Source: Acinetobacter lanii
Lineage (GTDB): Bacteria; Pseudomonadota; Gammaproteobacteria; Pseudomonadales; Moraxellaceae
Direction: 5' to 3'
NCBI RefSeq assembly: GCF_011578285.1
Contig: NZ_CP049916.1
Span: 2,542,001 to 2,606,000, forward strand
DNA: 64,000 nucleotides
The translations under genes and the position numbers were made by a program. This document shows positions 36,534-54,057 of the stretch, piece by piece. The notes beneath the pieces are model-generated. The model was not told the DNA's origin and searched no databases. It worked only from the letters and a program-made list of their open reading frames with translations. Each line of letters begins with the position of its first letter. Position 1 is the stretch's first letter.

Positions 36534-37721
36534 TTAAACTTCCAAATAATGACTGACAGTATTACGCCCTTTATTTTTAGACAGATACAACGCTTGATCG
36601 GCAACTTTAGCGATATCCTCCAAATGCTTGCCTGAGTCTGACAAAGCAACACCAAAACTAGCGCTCACTTTTAAAAGGGTTCCATCTGCTAAGTGAATCT
36701 GCTCCATTTCAATGGCTTGACGACAGCGTTCAGCTACTTCCATTGCATCTGCTAAATTTTGTTCAGGCAAAATCAATACAAATTCCTCTCCCCCAAAACG
36801 TCCGACGATGTCATTGCCTCGTACATGGGCTTTTAGCACCTGTGCGACACGTCTTAACACTTCATCGCCAATATCATGCCCATAATTGTCATTAATTTTT
36901 TTAAAATAATCTAAATCTAAAATCACCAACGCATAAGGTAGTTTCTTTTTATACTGTAAGTGTTCAGCATAATCTGTGCTATAACGGCGGTTATACACAT
37001 TGGTCAGCCCATCAATTTGACTTAAGGTTTCAATCTTGCGTTCACGACGGCGCCATTGCCTTAGTAAAATTTCAAAAAATAAAGCAGAAATCATCAGAAT
37101 CGGGATATACAAAATCAGCATACTGTTCATCCAAAATGAATTTTTATAAAACTCACTGTTGTTTAAACGTTCACTGAATAACGGAGCATAGGAAATCGCA
37201 TCAATCGAGGTCAAATAACCAATCCCTACCAAGACCACCGCCACAATCACCGCGATGCTATAAATCACTTTGGGTTGATAAAACACAAAGCCAATCAATA
37301 AAATATTGACCACACCCGCCATAGCGGCAGGACTATAAATGCCCACAGTATGCGCCGAGTAAATGAGCAATAGGCCAAAATACAGCGGAATAAACCATCC
37401 CATGAATGTGCGGAACGTTTTAAATCGCTTAAAAGTCAGAGAAATGATGAGGATTAGACTGGTGAGTGCGATCTGACAGTAAGTGGTGAACATCCGGTAG
37501 TCATGATAACTTTCACTCAGCCAAATGCGGTTTTCAGAATGGTAATTAATCACGTACCATGACAAATGTCCGCACACCGTCAGCAGAGCAAACAGCAGTA
37601 ACAAAATCCCTTTATTAAAATCAGGCCAATAAATCAGCACATTGTCGGTTTCAAATAAATGAAAGCGGATTTGTGCCCATGCCTGTTTTATTTTATGGAT
37701 CAGTCGCTGCATTATTTTCAT
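36534..37721 (-). CDS. Membrane diguanylate cyclase (GGDEF), copy 1
   Basis: This enzyme makes cyclic di-GMP from two GTP. The 395 residues have six membrane spans (about 35-220; IYSPAAMAGVVNILLIGFVF) and a C-terminal GGDEF domain (about 235-395). The signature is GGEEF; LDYFKKINDNYGHDIGDEVL is intact; and the inhibitory I-site RxxD is present as RGND five residues before GGEEF. The membrane domain closely resembles those of the genes at 39983 and 41596. ATG at 37712 is a possible alternative start. Confidence 0.92.
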   Translation of the reverse strand: MKIMQRLIHKIKQAWAQIRFHLFETDNVLIYWPDFNKGILLLLFALLTVCGHLSWYVINYHSENRIWLSESYHDYRMFTTYCQIALTSLILIISLTFKRFKTFRTFMGWFIPLYFGLLLIYSAHTVGIYSPAAMAGVVNILLIGFVFYQPKVIYSIAVIVAVVLVGIGYLTSIDAISYAPLFSERLNNSEFYKNSFWMNSMLILYIPILMISALFFEILLRQWRRRERKIETLSQIDGLTNVYNRRYSTDYAEHLQYKKKLPYALVILDLDYFKKINDNYGHDIGDEVLRRVAQVLKAHVRGNDIVGRFGGEEFVLILPEQNLADAMEVAERCRQAIEMEQIHLADGTLLKVSASFGVALSDSGKHLEDIAKVADQALYLSKNKGRNTVSHYLEV

Positions 37722-37934: not shown

Positions 37935-38411
37935 TTATAAGCGTTCTACAAACAAGATTCCATTTAAATGATCGACTTCGTGTTGCACAATCCGTGCAGG
38001 AAAACCCTGAAAAGACGTTTCAACCACTTCACCATTTAAAGTGTAATAACGCACCTTAATCCGTTCAGCGCGCGCCACATCTCCACGTTCGTTCGGCACA
38101 CTCAAACAGCCCTCTTCCCCCAATATAGTCTGTTCAGATGCAAACACAATTTCCGGATTGACCATCACCACGGCATCCATATCGGGTGCGTCCGGATAAC
38201 GAATATTGGGACGCGATGCCACTATAATCACTCGCTTAGACACATAGACCTGTGGTGCAGCAATGCCCACGCCATTACGTTCCAACATGGTGTCCTGCAT
38301 TGCATCTGCCAATGTATTTAACCATGCACTGCCAAACTCATGTTCGCTGACCGGAGCAGCCACAATGCCAAGTACTGCTTCGCCGCGTTGCGCGACCGCT
38401 AAAATTGTCAT
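37935..38411 (-). CDS. def: Peptide deformylase
   Basis: This metalloenzyme removes the formyl group from new proteins. The 158 residues have all three motifs: GVGIAAPQV, EGCLSVP (metal Cys) and QHEVDHLNG (two metal His and catalytic Glu). AAGGAAG lies 7 bases before the ATG. It lacks the fmt neighbour of the main def gene, so it is probably a second, unlinked deformylase; activity should still be expected from intact motifs. Confidence 0.93.
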   Translation of the reverse strand: MTILAVAQRGEAVLGIVAAPVSEHEFGSAWLNTLADAMQDTMLERNGVGIAAPQVYVSKRVIIVASRPNIRYPDAPDMDAVVMVNPEIVFASEQTILGEEGCLSVPNERGDVARAERIKVRYYTLNGEVVETSFQGFPARIVQHEVDHLNGILFVERL

Positions 38412-38753
38412 GCTTGATCTTCCTTTGTATATATGTGTTTGTCTGAGTGGAGATGGTTTTTAATGCTTATCGGCTTTGATGGTAATAGGCGTTACTGCTA
38501 GGATTTTTAAAGCTCAGCGTTTTTAATACTCAGCGTTTTGAATGTTTTAGCTTAAATCCGAATGCTTGAATTTTAAACTGATTTATTTTCATATACACAT
38601 CAATAAACACCGATAAGCATCATTCAAATGAAAGTTTTGAAACTGCAACATACCTCGCTACCCATGCATCTTCCTATTTAAAAATAAATCAAGATATTGC
38701 TTATCGCTTGAGCATGTTAAAATTCTGGCATACAGTTTTTGTTATAGGCGCTC
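38412..38753. other. Gene-free stretch between def and the split cyclase gene
   Basis: AT-rich divergent promoter region. A short direct repeat (CTCAGCGTTTT twice, near 38513-38541) is the only pattern seen. Confidence 0.5.
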
Positions 38754-39932
38754 ATGACCGCACAAGTAAATTATTTTAGTTTGCTGATTCCCATTTTTTT
38801 AATGGTGATTGCGGGGATTCTGTTCGTTTTAGCTTTTCTCAATAAAATTTCTAATTATATGAAATGGTTTGCCGCAGCGATTTTTGTCTCTGTCTGTGTG
38901 CAAATTTTACAAACCATTGTTCTACCGAGCGATATTTATCGTTTTGCCCCACTGAACTGTTTTCTGTTTTTTATTTCAGTGCTGTGTACCGCACATGCCG
39001 TCTATCTTAGACTCGGTATAGCCACCCATTGACGCTTTGTACTCACGACCTTAGTGATCAGTGAGTTAATCCTAACTTATTACTGTTGGGTTGAGCCGAA
39101 TTTGGATGTTCGGCTGAGCATCGTGGCGATTTGTTCAGTGTTACTGTGCTGCAATAACCTAGTTGACTTGGTGCAGTCAAAATCTTCCCATTTTCTCGAT
39201 ACCCTATTGAAAATCAGTCTATATGGCATGATCTTTGCGATTGTGCTGCGTGCCGTGTATATGGTACTGATTTACAATCAAATCTCATGGATTGAACAAC
39301 GTGATCTGATTTGGGCATTAACCCAATTTTTGATGCTCTTTTTCGCTATTGTGATGATCACCATTTTCATCAGTTGTTCGATTCAAGACACCTTAATTCG
39401 GCTTTCTCGTGAACGCAATTTAGACCCGCTGACTGGCTTAATCAACCGCCGTGCTTTGGACGAACATATTGAACGACTTAAGCTTGAAAACGGCCACAAG
39501 CAGCATGCCATTATCCTGTGTGATATCGATCATTTTAAACAGGTTAATGATCAATATGGTCATGCCGTAGGAGATGCTGCATTAAAGCATATCGCGCAGA
39601 TGATGAATAAAGCCGTGCGTAAGTCCGATGAGATTGCCCGAATCGGTGGTGAAGAATTTCTGATTTTATTGCACGATGTGCATGAAGGTTTTGCCCTCAC
39701 TGTGGCAGAACGGATTCGAACCGTTGTTGAAATGACACCCTTACAGATTGAACAGCAAAACATTTATATGACGGTGAGTTTTGGTGTGAGCTTTTTTAAA
39801 CATTATGATGATATTGCTCAAGCCAAGCAAAATGCGGATTTATTGCTGTATCAAGCCAAAAAATTTGGTCGCAATAAAGTTCAGTGGCAACTGCAATCTC
39901 AATTAAAAACTTTGAATACGCTTAAGCCTTGA
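38754..39932 (+). pseudogene. Membrane diguanylate cyclase (GGDEF) split by an in-frame TGA
   Basis: One continuous frame of 392 codons is interrupted only by TGA at 39030-39032. Before it are 92 codons with three membrane spans (MTAQVNYFSLLIPIFL...); right after it the same frame continues RFVLTTLVISELILTYYC with further spans and then a complete GGDEF domain (LDPLTGLINRRALDEH, DIDHFKQVNDQYGHAVGD, GGEEF, I-site RKSD). A Trp (TGG) to stop change in the membrane domain is the simplest reading. A GTG at 39054 in the same frame could restart a shorter, 292-residue cyclase lacking the first spans. UGA-C is a leaky context, so read-through or a sequencing error remain possible. Confidence 0.85.
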
Positions 39933-39982
39933 ACATCAGATGTGATTCAAAGCGGTTACATGATCCTGTACGCCTGCGCTGT

Positions 39983-41320
39983 TTAAATCTCTTGCGTTAA
40001 CAGCGTCATTGAACTGTTGTAACACAACACCTGATTACGTCCCTGATGCTTGGCTTGATATAAGGCTTGATCTGCTCTGCGAATCGTATCTTCTTTGGCC
40101 ATGCCTTGCTGAGAAAAGGCCACACCAAAACTGGCGCTGAATTGAAGTGGACGCCCTTCTTGGGTTTCAATACTGGCCTGTTGAATCGCTTGACGACATG
40201 CTTCGGTCATTTTCAACACATACTCCAAGCTTTTATCAACAAAAATCAAAATAAATTCTTCGCCCCCATAACGACCCACCAAGTCTTGTATTAAGTGCTG
40301 TGTTCTCGCATGTTGTAGCGTTACACTCAATTTGCGTTTTTGCATGGATGGGGCTTTAGATTGAGTTAAACGGTTCGAGTCTTCAGAATTAGACGGTAAT
40401 GGTTTAAATTGCATCGGCTCGACATCAGCAGCTAAGCCTTGAATCTGATCTTTTAAAATTTTTGCAACTTCTATCAGCACCGCATCACCGGCTTCATGCC
40501 CAAAATCATCATTGATCTTTTTAAAAAAATCCAAATCCAGCAATGCCACCGCATAAGGCAGTTGTTGTGCTTCAATTTGTTGTAAGCTTTGTCCAATACT
40601 GCGTCGGTTATCGATGCCGGTCAGTGGGTCTTTACGACTAATCTCATTAATCAATTGTTCACGGTTACGCCACTGGGTCAGCAAAATTTCAAATAACCCC
40701 AAGCTGGCAAAAAAGATCGGAATATATAAGAACATCATACTGAATACCCAGTATGGATTCTCATATAACACTTGTTGATTCAGTTCCGCACTAAAAATCG
40801 GTGCATGCGCAAAGGTGCCATTGGAACACAAAAAAATGACCGCCAACAACGCCACAGTAATCGGAATAAAGGTCAGATAAATCATTTTGCGTTCATGCAA
40901 AACTAAGCCGACTGTCACCAAATTAATGTAGCCTGCAATGGTTGCAGGACTTGAGATCCCGATGCTATATCCGGCCAAAAGTAGTGTCGAACCCAGATAG
41001 GCCACGGCAAAATAAGGCATATACCGCTGAATCAAAGCATGCTGTTGCAAGCGATAGGTGAGATAGGTCAAGCCAAAATATAAACATGTCCCGACCACAA
41101 AGACCGTTAAATAAAGGCCAAAGTACTGCGGATTAATCCAATGATTTAAGGAGGGCGTATAAAAGCTGAAAAGCAGCCAAATCACCCAAAAACTGTAATA
41201 CACGCCGCCCATCAACAAAATCAAAATACTTTTGCGGATGTTGTCCCACTGCATGATTACGCTCGAATCCATAAAGTTTTTTATGCGTTCATTCGTCCTG
41301 AAAAACCATGCATTGCTCAT
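39983..41320 (-). CDS. Membrane diguanylate cyclase (GGDEF), copy 3, with insertion
   Basis: 445 residues: six membrane spans (about 30-225; IGISSPATIAGYINLVTVGLVL) and a GGDEF domain. Between the first half (LDLDFFKKINDDFGHEAGD) and GGEEF an extra stretch of about 50 residues (GLAADVEPMQFKP to QHLIQD) rich in Ser/Gln/Lys is inserted. The I-site Arg is lost (LIQD instead of RxxD), so product inhibition is probably absent. GGEEF itself and the C-terminal ADQALYQAKHQGRNQV are intact. ATG at 41272 is an alternative start. Paralogous and adjacent, same strand, to the gene at 41596. Confidence 0.92.
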   Translation of the reverse strand: MSNAWFFRTNERIKNFMDSSVIMQWDNIRKSILILLMGGVYYSFWVIWLLFSFYTPSLNHWINPQYFGLYLTVFVVGTCLYFGLTYLTYRLQQHALIQRYMPYFAVAYLGSTLLLAGYSIGISSPATIAGYINLVTVGLVLHERKMIYLTFIPITVALLAVIFLCSNGTFAHAPIFSAELNQQVLYENPYWVFSMMFLYIPIFFASLGLFEILLTQWRNREQLINEISRKDPLTGIDNRRSIGQSLQQIEAQQLPYAVALLDLDFFKKINDDFGHEAGDAVLIEVAKILKDQIQGLAADVEPMQFKPLPSNSEDSNRLTQSKAPSMQKRKLSVTLQHARTQHLIQDLVGRYGGEEFILIFVDKSLEYVLKMTEACRQAIQQASIETQEGRPLQFSASFGVAFSQQGMAKEDTIRRADQALYQAKHQGRNQVLCYNSSMTLLTQEI

Positions 41321-41595: not shown

Positions 41596-42765
41596 TTAAA
41601 TACTGTCTAAATAAGGTTTGACTTGGTTTCGTCCACTGTCTTTGGCTTGATACAACGCTTGATCTGCCTGACGAATAATCACCTCTTTACTTAAACTTAG
41701 CTTCGACAATGCCACCCCAAAACTTGCAGAAGCATGAATCATGGTCGATTTATTGATATAAATCGGTTCTTTTTCAATTTCAAGACGACAGCGCTCGGCA
41801 ATGTCCATCGCTTGTTTTAAACTTTTATTCTTTAAAACTAAAATAAATTCTTCGCCGCCAAATCTTCCCACCACATCTTCACCTCGCAGATTCGCAGACA
41901 ATATTTTCGCGACTTTCTTCAACACTTGGTCACCGACATCATGCCCATAACTATCATTGATCTTTTTAAAATGATCAAGATCTAACAAGACCAAGGCATA
42001 GCTTTGCTGATCTTGCTGAATTTGCGACAGATTGCTGGCAATTTTTCGGCGGTTATAAATCCCGGTCAATGGGTCGATTTGACTGATTTCATTGATTTGT
42101 TTTTCACGGTTACGCCACTGCGTTAAGAGCACTTCAAATAAGACCAAGCCTGCAAAAAATATCGGAATATACAAATACAGTTGGCTATATACCCAAAATT
42201 CATTGTGAATCAAAATACTCCGATTCACTTCTTCACTATAAACCGGCGCATAGGTCATTTTGCCCAACATGCTTAACACAATCGCAATCAGTAGATAAAT
42301 CGTGATGGGAATAAAAATGATATAAATAATTTTACGCTCGAACAGCACCAAACCGACTGTGACCAAACTGATATAACCTGCAATCGTGGCAGGACTGCTG
42401 ATCCCGATGGTATAGCCGCCATAAATAAAGGTCAGCGAAAAAAAGATAATCGAGATATAAGGCAAATAGGTTTGGGCATAGACATTATGCCGATAATAAT
42501 GACACGGCCATATCAACAGAAAACTTAAAATACAGCAGATACTCATGCGGGTGACATGAAATTTAAAATAATCAGGATTCAACCAATGCTGTAAAGAAGG
42601 CGTCAATGAACAACCCAAATACCAAGCAATCCACAAAATATGATCGATGCCACCCAAAAACAGCACCAACATACTTTTGTTTAAATTACTCCAATTCATC
42701 AACACACTATTGTTCATAAACTGCTGAACAGGTGATGAATGAATGATTTGTGTCAGTAATTTCAT
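41596..42765 (-). CDS. Membrane diguanylate cyclase (GGDEF), copy 4
   Basis: 389 residues: six membrane spans (about 35-230; IGISSPATIAGYISLVTVGLVL) and a standard GGDEF domain with DPLTGIYNRRKI, LDLDHFKKINDSYGHDVGD, I-site RGED and GGEEF. It is the intact-form paralogue of the gene at 39983, from which it is separated by 275 AT-rich bases; a tandem duplication is likely. Signal sensed by the shared membrane domain is unknown. Confidence 0.92.
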   Translation of the reverse strand: MKLLTQIIHSSPVQQFMNNSVLMNWSNLNKSMLVLFLGGIDHILWIAWYLGCSLTPSLQHWLNPDYFKFHVTRMSICCILSFLLIWPCHYYRHNVYAQTYLPYISIIFFSLTFIYGGYTIGISSPATIAGYISLVTVGLVLFERKIIYIIFIPITIYLLIAIVLSMLGKMTYAPVYSEEVNRSILIHNEFWVYSQLYLYIPIFFAGLVLFEVLLTQWRNREKQINEISQIDPLTGIYNRRKIASNLSQIQQDQQSYALVLLDLDHFKKINDSYGHDVGDQVLKKVAKILSANLRGEDVVGRFGGEEFILVLKNKSLKQAMDIAERCRLEIEKEPIYINKSTMIHASASFGVALSKLSLSKEVIIRQADQALYQAKDSGRNQVKPYLDSI

Positions 42766-47436: not shown

Positions 47437-50328
<2,892 letters not shown>

Positions 50329-50758
50329 CAACCCCAAACAGTCGTTAACCCTTACAAGTGGGGTTAGCAACAGATCGATTGCTCGATCATACAGTTGGCG
50401 TCTCGTAGATTTAACTACAGTACAGCTTCAATTAGATTCATATACCAAAACGCTTGATTCAGTTAATTTCGCTAGTTCTCATTCAATCACTTCAACTTCA
50501 TAACTTACGTTATGTCGTTTCCGCTTTTGGAATGAGTTAAACAATTAATTTCAACTCAAATATATTCTGTTAATGATTGTCTACGTCCTCATCGGAGCGC
50601 AGCAACTGTGATAAATCACAGAAGTTAACAAGACGCGCATTATACGCAATTTCTTACTAATTTCTATAATCTAACCAACTGATCGCTTACTCAGTGCTCG
50701 AAGTATAACTTCTCGCTTAAATTTTAAGGAAAAGCAGTGCTTTTCTGATCTTAAAATT
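50329..50758 (-). other. Spacer between tRNA-Ala and 23S
   Basis: About 430 bases of transcribed spacer. It contains the leader half of the 23S processing stem; no further tRNA is seen in it. Confidence 0.7.
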
Positions 50759-50834
50759 TGGTGGAGACTAGGAGAGTCGAACTCCTGACCTCCTGCGTGC
50801 AAAGCAGGCGCTCTACCAACTAAGCTAAGTCCCC
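50759..50834 (-). tRNA. tRNA-Ala (TGC)
   Basis: 76 bases with encoded CCA. Acceptor GGGGACT pairs with AGTCTCC; anticodon TGC within CTTTGCACG; GTTCGACTC T-loop. Confidence 0.95.
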
Positions 50835-50909
50835 AGCTTATCATATAGATTCGATATATCTTTACGTTCTGTTCGCTTCAGTATTTTCATACTGCGTTAG
50901 TCAGATAGT

Positions 50910-50986
<77 letters not shown>

Positions 50987-51046
50987 CAGATACATCTTCA
51001 TGAAGAACAACTTGTTGTGGATTCTTACCGATCGTCAATCTTTCGT

Positions 51047-52585
<1,539 letters not shown>

Positions 52586-53142
52586 AAAATCAGTAGTGCC
52601 TAAAGGACACCAATCTTGGCTCATCAATTTTCTGACAAATATTTCTCAAATAAACTTCGAGTAATTTCTACCATCAATCAATGAAAATAATTTCGATCAA
52701 TCAACCAGTAAAAATCCACACAAGTTGTTCTTCATAATCTCTTAATGATCTTCTTGCTCTTCGTCAGAGACAAGTTCAACGCAAAACATCTAACAACTTA
52801 ACCTATTCAGCTAAGTTCGTTTGCTGTATCGCGTCGGGATGCTGCGTATTCTATACAGTTTCAAACCAAGCACAACCCCTATTTTCATTTAATTTAATCG
52901 GGTGTTTATTTTTTAAACCAAATATCCATAAAATCTAGTTTTACGGTGATTTAATCATCAAGTTGGTCGAATTAATTTGATTTATTGTCTGTAGATAATC
53001 AATTTAGCATGCGACTCTAAGCTGCAATTGCTGTTTTTGAGAATAAGTTATTCGAACTACTATTCATGAATCAAATGATTCACTCTCTCAAAATACTCAA
53101 TTAGGCTTTGAGGATAGAAACAACGAGGAGCGTGTTTACTGT
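52586..53142 (-). other. rRNA operon leader and promoter region
   Basis: The transcribed leader contains the 5' half of the 16S processing stem. The rrn promoter lies at 52848-52875, and the AT-rich stretch behind it resembles an UP element. No gene seen. Confidence 0.7.
52848..52875 (-). promoter_or_regulatory. Candidate rrn promoter
   Basis: Read on the minus strand: -35 TTGTGC, 16-base spacer, -10 TAGAAT, then a G+C-rich discriminator ACGCAGC as expected for growth-rate and stringent control. An AT-rich region lies upstream. Confidence 0.65.
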
Positions 53143-53370
<228 letters not shown>

Positions 53371-53382
53371 TTAAACAAAGGT

Positions 53383-54057
53383 ATGAATAACACAGAAAGT
53401 CGCATCGATAGTTGACTAGCCACTTTAGCTGCAAGCAATGAATGCTTTTATAAAACAGCAGATATAGAACAGCAGATAGAAACCTTGCTGGTGACTCTTC
53501 TTAAAAACTTACCTGATGTTGACACTTTTTATCATGGGTAGTTTGAGTATGCCTTTGGCATAGGCTGTCGTCCTTAAGAAATGCTTGAATTTAGACAAAT
53601 CGATATCGATTGGTTTAATGGCACATTCAAGGTCAGCAAAAGCCGTGTAAAAGGATTAGAAAAGAAAGTGACCAAAACACATACTTCTCGTGAGGTCTAT
53701 CTGAATGAACGCTCAACTTTAGCTTTAAAAGCTTTGCTTCAATTTAAAAAGGATCAAGGCTACCAAACAGACTATGTAATGCTATGTCCCAAGACGAAGG
53801 AACCATTCTTTAATGAAAAGCCGCCTAGGGAGCGTCTTGTAGAAGCAATGAAATCGTGTTCTATACGGCATCGCCCTGCTTACAATGCACGGCACACGTA
53901 TGCAACAATGCTACTCATGGATGGGGTAAATCCAATGTTTGTCGCTGATCAACTTGGGCATAGCCTACAAATGCTCATCAAGCGCTATACTAAATGGTTG
54001 CATGGGGATAAAAATAAGCAAGAAATTGCGAAACTTAGCGTAGCACGTACAACCTAA
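53383..54057 (+). pseudogene. Tyrosine recombinase (integrase) remnant with three in-frame stops
   Basis: One frame from ATG 53383 to TAA 54055 reads as an integrase but carries TGA at 53413, TAG at 53539 and TAA at 53575. The homology is continuous across the last two: DVDTFYHG-stop-FEYAFGIGCRP-stop-EMLEFRQIDIDW, where families usually have Tyr/Phe and Ser. The catalytic domain has Arg in GCRP, Arg/His in ARHTYATMLL, HS in LGHSLQML and the Tyr in KRYTKWL, so these remain. The N-terminal arm- and core-binding domains are missing. It lies about 100 bases from the 3' end of ssrA, a common phage attachment site. Confidence 0.88.

Follow-up and report, generated by a model that had tools for sequence, protein, structure and literature searches.

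An in-frame TGA at a conserved tryptophan position interrupts a predicted membrane diguanylate cyclase gene in Acinetobacter lanii

The closest described counterparts of the gene reported here are diguanylate cyclase genes of Shigella flexneri, three of which (dgcE, dgcQ and dgcN) raise c-di-GMP despite a stop ahead of the GGDEF domain, according to the accessible part of the report (PMC11327459). Bands of full-length size are given there for dgcN and, in the discussion, for dgcQ, although a results passage assigns dgcQ to restart. Among possible causes of the Shigella products, read-through is mentioned (PMC11327459, same portions of the text). Within the genus Acinetobacter, a frameshifted pdeC reaches a prevalence of 97–100% in some clonal groups of A. 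baumannii (PMC13243610, in the sections available). With respect to the stop codon itself, UGA followed by C is called a weak, inefficient terminator, and for misreading by tRNA-Trp in Escherichia coli it is a following A, not C, that is named (PMC5289835, in excerpt). The UGA-suppressing tRNA-Trp of Hirsh is a G24A change, as stated in the part of PMC13092985 that is accessible.

The gene considered here lies in a stretch of 64,000 nucleotides of the A. lanii genome (contig NZ_CP049916.1, positions 2,542,001 to 2,606,000), which in its entirety is called the window below. With S. flexneri dgcE, dgcN, dgcQ and dgcM it shares a premature stop upstream of a complete GGDEF domain, together with intact copies in relatives and several GGDEF genes in the genome, whereas expression and c-di-GMP were measured in Shigella and the window gene, which belongs to another protein family and another host, is known from sequence alone (compared with the accessible part of PMC11327459). 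What it shares with A. baumannii pdeC is the genus and the nature of the event, an enzyme of c-di-GMP turnover lost through one lesion; the affected gene there is a phosphodiesterase and the lesion a frameshift, as opposed to a cyclase and a nonsense codon, found in one genome, in the window (PMC13243610, available sections). The interrupted cyclase is one more case of an already known type, a nonsense-broken cyclase gene in a genome with many GGDEF genes, and matters mainly to annotators, who might otherwise list two genes.

A sequence-only reading had described a frame open from 38754 to 39932 except for one TGA, and this description is borne out by the sequence, the list of open reading frames (ORFs) and homology on both sides of the stop. 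From the ATG at 38754 to the terminal TGA ending at 39932 there is a single forward-strand frame, the sole break of which is the TGA at codon 93 (Table 1), and no further stop or frame break is present. In the ORF list the upstream piece (38754..39032, TGA included) encodes 92 amino acids, the stretch that follows in the same frame (39033..39932) is open for 299 codons ahead of the final TGA, and the earliest start codon past the stop, a GTG, would give a product of 292 amino acids. At most one stop in a 391-codon frame is expected by chance with a probability of about 1e-9, assuming independent bases of this composition; because homology extends to both sides of the TGA, the frame is a real gene and not a chance occurrence. 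The downstream part matches PF00990 with an E-value of 1.6e-44 (151.9 bits against a curated cut-off of 23.8), and the GGDEF domain is complete, with both class marks of a membrane-bound GGDEF diguanylate cyclase, the GG(D/E)EF active site and the RxxD I-site, as had been read from the sequence. Hydropathy analysis, in which overlapping peaks were merged by eye, places three hydrophobic segments before the TGA and four after it, with the GGDEF domain last. The interrupted gene is accordingly predicted to encode a membrane diguanylate cyclase with seven hydrophobic segments.

Table 1. Coordinates of the interrupted cyclase gene, its neighbours and other features (window positions unless another genome or locus is named)
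Feature	Coordinates	Strand	Basis and remarks
N-terminal membrane part of the diguanylate cyclase	38754..39029	+	92 codons, three hydrophobic segments; 57/92 residues identical to L028/G144
In-frame TGA, codon 93, next base C	39030..39032	+	Trp aligned in 22/29 relatives
C-terminal part: four hydrophobic segments and GGDEF domain	39033..39929	+	164/293 aligned residues identical to L028/G144
GGDEF domain motifs: DPLTG (39423-39437), RKSD I-site (39618-39629), GGEEF (39645-39659), KFGRN (39861)	39423..39875	+	profile search and motif reading
GTG, first in-frame start after the stop	39054..39056	+	ORF list, pairing energy; no Shine-Dalgarno pairing
Peptide-deformylase-like gene, divergent neighbour	37935..38411	-	named by sequence recognition; arrangement same in G144, G138, G040
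Neighbouring GGDEF gene, one open frame	36534..37721	-	profile match; 67% identical match in G144
Neighbouring GGDEF gene, one open frame, domain matched in two stretches	39983..41320	-	profile match
Neighbouring GGDEF gene, one open frame	41596..42765	-	profile match
Second tRNA-Trp(CCA), two identical copies	G000 C1:1190201-1190274 and 1190466-1190539 (L175:302-375, 567-640)		outside the window; short D loop, U11-A24
Further stop flags, window genome (G000)	L224, L223, L219		L224: one; L223: one; L219: two in one gene
Further stop flags, G144	L240		one in one gene, two in another
Frameshift rows	L219, L234		L219 gene: two; L234 (G144): one

Homologues were sought in genomes of the genus, the upstream part in 119 and the downstream part in 119 and then in 175 genomes, the latter including the window genome, and 29 matching loci were aligned (18 from the smaller search and 11 more from the larger). 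Membrane part and GGDEF domain lie in a single open frame of 381–428 codons in 27 of the 29 (386 codons in L006), in contrast to the window; the two others, L012 and L038 (genomes G044 and G174), are frameshifted at places other than the window stop. A stop at the column of the TGA is absent from all 29. Tryptophan, the residue that the sequence-only reading had expected at codon 93, occupies this column in 22 of the 29 loci and in all 20 with an E-value of at most 1e-55 in the 175-genome search. The seven remaining loci, with Y, S (three), P and I (two), are the seven weakest matches of the 119-genome downstream search, and two of them, L017 and L018, look as if they may belong to another GGDEF family. 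The nearest homologue, L028 in G144, is 58% identical downstream, and the 80 matching loci from other genera reach up to 45% identity. Homologues in the form of two separate genes, which would have spoken for two genes by design, were not encountered, and that arrangement is ruled out by their single frames and the lack of a conserved split; a frameshift is likewise ruled out for the window cyclase, where the break is an in-frame stop, and applies to L012 and L038 only.

The genomic setting of the gene is also shared. In all nine relative regions that were fetched, the cyclase lies near at least one non-GGDEF neighbour of the window gene, for example metH, dhaK, a DUF559-type gene or a pnuC-like gene (in G173 only the DUF559-type gene), where names were assigned by recognition of the sequence and GGDEF genes by profile search. 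The divergent pair formed by the cyclase and the deformylase-like gene recurs in G144, G138 and G040, which carry an intact orthologue at the same place. These conserved neighbours and the divergent pair make it most likely that the window gene is the orthologue, still in its ancestral position. The locus evolves fast (58% identity, against 90% for the nearby dhaK, in G144). Between 36534 and 42765 the window holds four GGDEF genes in about 6 kb, three on the reverse strand and the interrupted one on the forward strand; the neighbour at 39983–41320 has an insertion of about 50 residues in its GGDEF domain, shortly before the GGEEF motif. In the genome as a whole, 26 GGDEF rows were obtained, two of which are one gene, giving 25 genes, the interrupted one and 24 others. 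Elsewhere in the window, the interval of about 48000–53500 contains nearly no ORFs of 110 codons and has tRNA-Ile and tRNA-Ala genes at about 50762–50985; it is presumably a ribosomal RNA operon.

Counted against G138 as outgroup, private residue changes number 31 in the window copy and 32 in the G144 orthologue over 383 columns (25 and 24, respectively, in the downstream part), and the differences are distributed over the three codon positions as 129, 80 and 226, a pattern as in coding DNA. In the dN/dS comparison with the nearest orthologue, at 58% identity, synonymous sites are saturated or nearly so, and a recent relaxation of selection would be invisible. Since there is neither an excess of changes nor a second lesion, it would appear that the stop is recent on the scale of the split, or that the product still matters and remains under constraint, or that the base is wrong.

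We consider it likely that the window gene, which encodes a fast-evolving and probably dispensable membrane diguanylate cyclase, became a nonsense allele recently. An ancestral cyclase with seven hydrophobic segments would have been inherited in the genus together with its neighbourhood, and a nonsense codon would then have been gained, recently as far as one strain of the species can tell, at the conserved Trp position between the third and fourth hydrophobic segments. Most ribosomes would stop after 92 residues and yield a three-segment membrane fragment without the enzyme, while the GGDEF enzyme would be made at most at a low level, from a leaky UGA or from weak internal starts; some full-length enzyme is plausible. 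Because the genome encodes 24 further GGDEF proteins, the loss is probably tolerated, and gene loss does occur in this cyclase family, as the frameshifted relatives L012 and L038 (two of 29) show. Among the four options offered by the sequence-only reading, a recent pseudogene, taken as a pseudogene or a weakened allele, fits best with the single-frame homologues, the Trp column and the conserved neighbours. The lack of acceleration and of a second lesion, however, would also fit a working gene or a wrong base.

If the UGA were leakily read as Trp by the ordinary or the second tRNA-Trp, a low dose of full-length enzyme would result, and Trp is indeed the residue expected at this column; in addition, UGA followed by C is a described weak terminator (PMC5289835, in excerpt), a second tRNA-Trp(CCA) whose D stem pairs U11 with A24 is encoded twice in the genome, the window branch is not accelerated, and the Shigella genes dgcE, dgcQ and dgcN provide a precedent for c-di-GMP being raised despite stops before the GGDEF domain (PMC11327459, accessible part). 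The support for UGA-C read-through, an option named earlier, is circumstantial. The TGA lacks conservation, since a stop at this column is missing from all 29 homologues; no other stop falls on an aligned Trp in the 241 genes compared, and the second tRNA-Trp also occurs in genomes with an intact cyclase, such as G144, which leaves the presence of the stop here unexplained. Moreover, TGA ends 37 of 297 sampled ORFs (12.5%) and therefore works as a stop in this genome, and we regard a gene kept working by read-through as unlikely. A similarly low probability is assigned to translation of the C-terminal part alone, as a shortened GGDEF protein, from an internal start. The restart at GTG 39054 that had been proposed finds no backing in its Shine-Dalgarno pairing (+0.2 kcal/mol); modest pairing is seen at TTG 39102 (-4.5 kcal/mol) and GTG 39123 (-4.8 kcal/mol), which are among several in-frame starts ahead of the GGDEF domain, and with an even number of segments left, the domain could stay on the cytoplasmic side. 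As the gene's own ATG is also weak in this respect (-2.4 kcal/mol), these energies are poor evidence either way. In Shigella, bands of dgcM and dgcQ are assigned to the stop and an adjacent methionine in the results passage (PMC11327459, as far as accessible), whereas the homologues of the window gene have no conserved split, and a simple consensus scan of the forward strand from 38400 to 40050 yielded no promoter-like site, the promoter and terminator scan around the cyclase remaining at the level of shuffled sequence.

A base-call or assembly error, the last of the earlier options, is suggested by the fact that all other features of the gene look intact; it runs up against a genome assembled in 2 contigs and 100% complete, in which the window ORFs matched in sense in G144 show no other inner stop and only three further, short ORFs were flagged in 384 kb, and without any burst of errors in the sampled genome we rate it as quite improbable. 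Selenocysteine at 39030 has nothing in its favour beyond the identity of the codon, UGA. The residue at this column is Trp rather than Cys, and neither SelB nor tRNA-Sec exceeded the cut-offs in the genome (the best SelB candidate reaches 180 bits against 242 and covers positions 1–262 of 581, and the two best tRNA-Sec places are tRNA-Ser); a selenoprotein is therefore rejected as having practically no chance of being correct.

Drawn from 419 kb of G144, the sample behind these comparisons comprised 326 ORFs with a minimum length of 100 codons and overlaps of no more than 30%, of which 241 were matched at 45% identity or more in 384 kb, about one ninth, of the window genome. Inner stops were flagged in four of the 241, the cyclase, which alone has its stop at an aligned Trp, and three ORFs of 121–165 codons; in the reverse scan 243 of 297 ORFs were matched, with stops flagged in two genes and a frame break in another. 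Besides the cyclase, the flags amount to seven stop positions in five genes, none with an aligned Trp, and three frameshift rows (Table 1). In both genomes the L224 flag merely shadows an ORF of 105 codons on the opposite strand, the first L240 flag, between two longer ORFs, may be a difference in start, and the others fall in short frames. When the window ORFs were compared with G144, the flagged stops other than that of the cyclase lay, as judged from coordinates, before annotated starts or in shadow frames. Outside the window, at about 2686–3271 of L219, a short ORF, either a gene or a chance frame, that has 165 codons in G144 is broken in the A. lanii genome by stops and a frame change. 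Neither a burst of assembly errors nor a recurrent set of in-frame TGA codons at Trp sites is seen in the sample. Widespread recoding of UGA to Trp is disfavoured by the single in-frame TGA at Trp among 241 genes in 384 kb, and no tRNA with a UCA anticodon was found among 84 tRNA places, which come from a search that scored 150 of 350 candidates and which, by a tally of coordinates, all lie in loci scanned with ARAGORN.

The window genome encodes one tRNA-Trp(CCA) of the usual proteobacterial form, as in E. coli, and a second form that is present in two identical copies between tRNA-Leu(TAG) genes. With positions numbered after the E. coli tRNA, the D stem has U11-A24 in the second form and U11-G24 in the first, and the second form has G at position 9; of the mark of variant tRNAs, a tRNA-Trp(CCA) with A24 or C9, it thus has A24 and not C9. 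It resembles the Hirsh-type tRNA-Trp in its CCA anticodon and A24, here paired with U11, and differs in having another tRNA body, G9 and an anticodon stem of at least 5 bp, and in that its properties are read from the gene (compared with the accessible part of PMC13092985). In the tRNA body of the second form, A24 may be normal. The 4-bp anticodon stem of PMC13092985 was not found in either tRNA-Trp form, both of which fold with at least 5 bp.

Matches to the second form occur in 164 of the 175 genomes searched within the genus; the other 11 assemblies are listed with 20 or more contigs each. The second form is 99–100% identical over 74 bases among the matches listed and down to 88% in another search within the genus, and a tRNA-Leu(TAG) gene lies near it in 26 of the 30 loci read (not at L185, L186, L187 and L206). 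A literature search, covering its sources in part, turned up no paper on this tRNA. Because it is also present in G144, where the cyclase is intact, the second tRNA-Trp is not the cause of the stop and could at most soften its effect. It would be a long shot that this near-invariant, genus-wide tRNA with its suppressor-type D stem reads a fraction of UGA as Trp, and that genes of this kind tolerate UGA and run at a low, tunable dose. The cyclase stop would be an inexpensive natural site at which to test UGA leakiness in a genus that has this odd additional tRNA-Trp; if leaky, it would be a natural reporter of stop-codon reading in the genus and would suggest a role for the conserved tRNA. Outside the genus, matches fall to 77% in three genomes of a single genus, where 71 bases align, and to 79% across 55 bases in genus g9, and a Paenibacillus plasmid matches at 86% over 72 bases. 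Among the full-length phage matches listed, tRNA-Trp genes are 75–79% identical to the second form, and two Acinetobacter phage records are identical to it at 100%.
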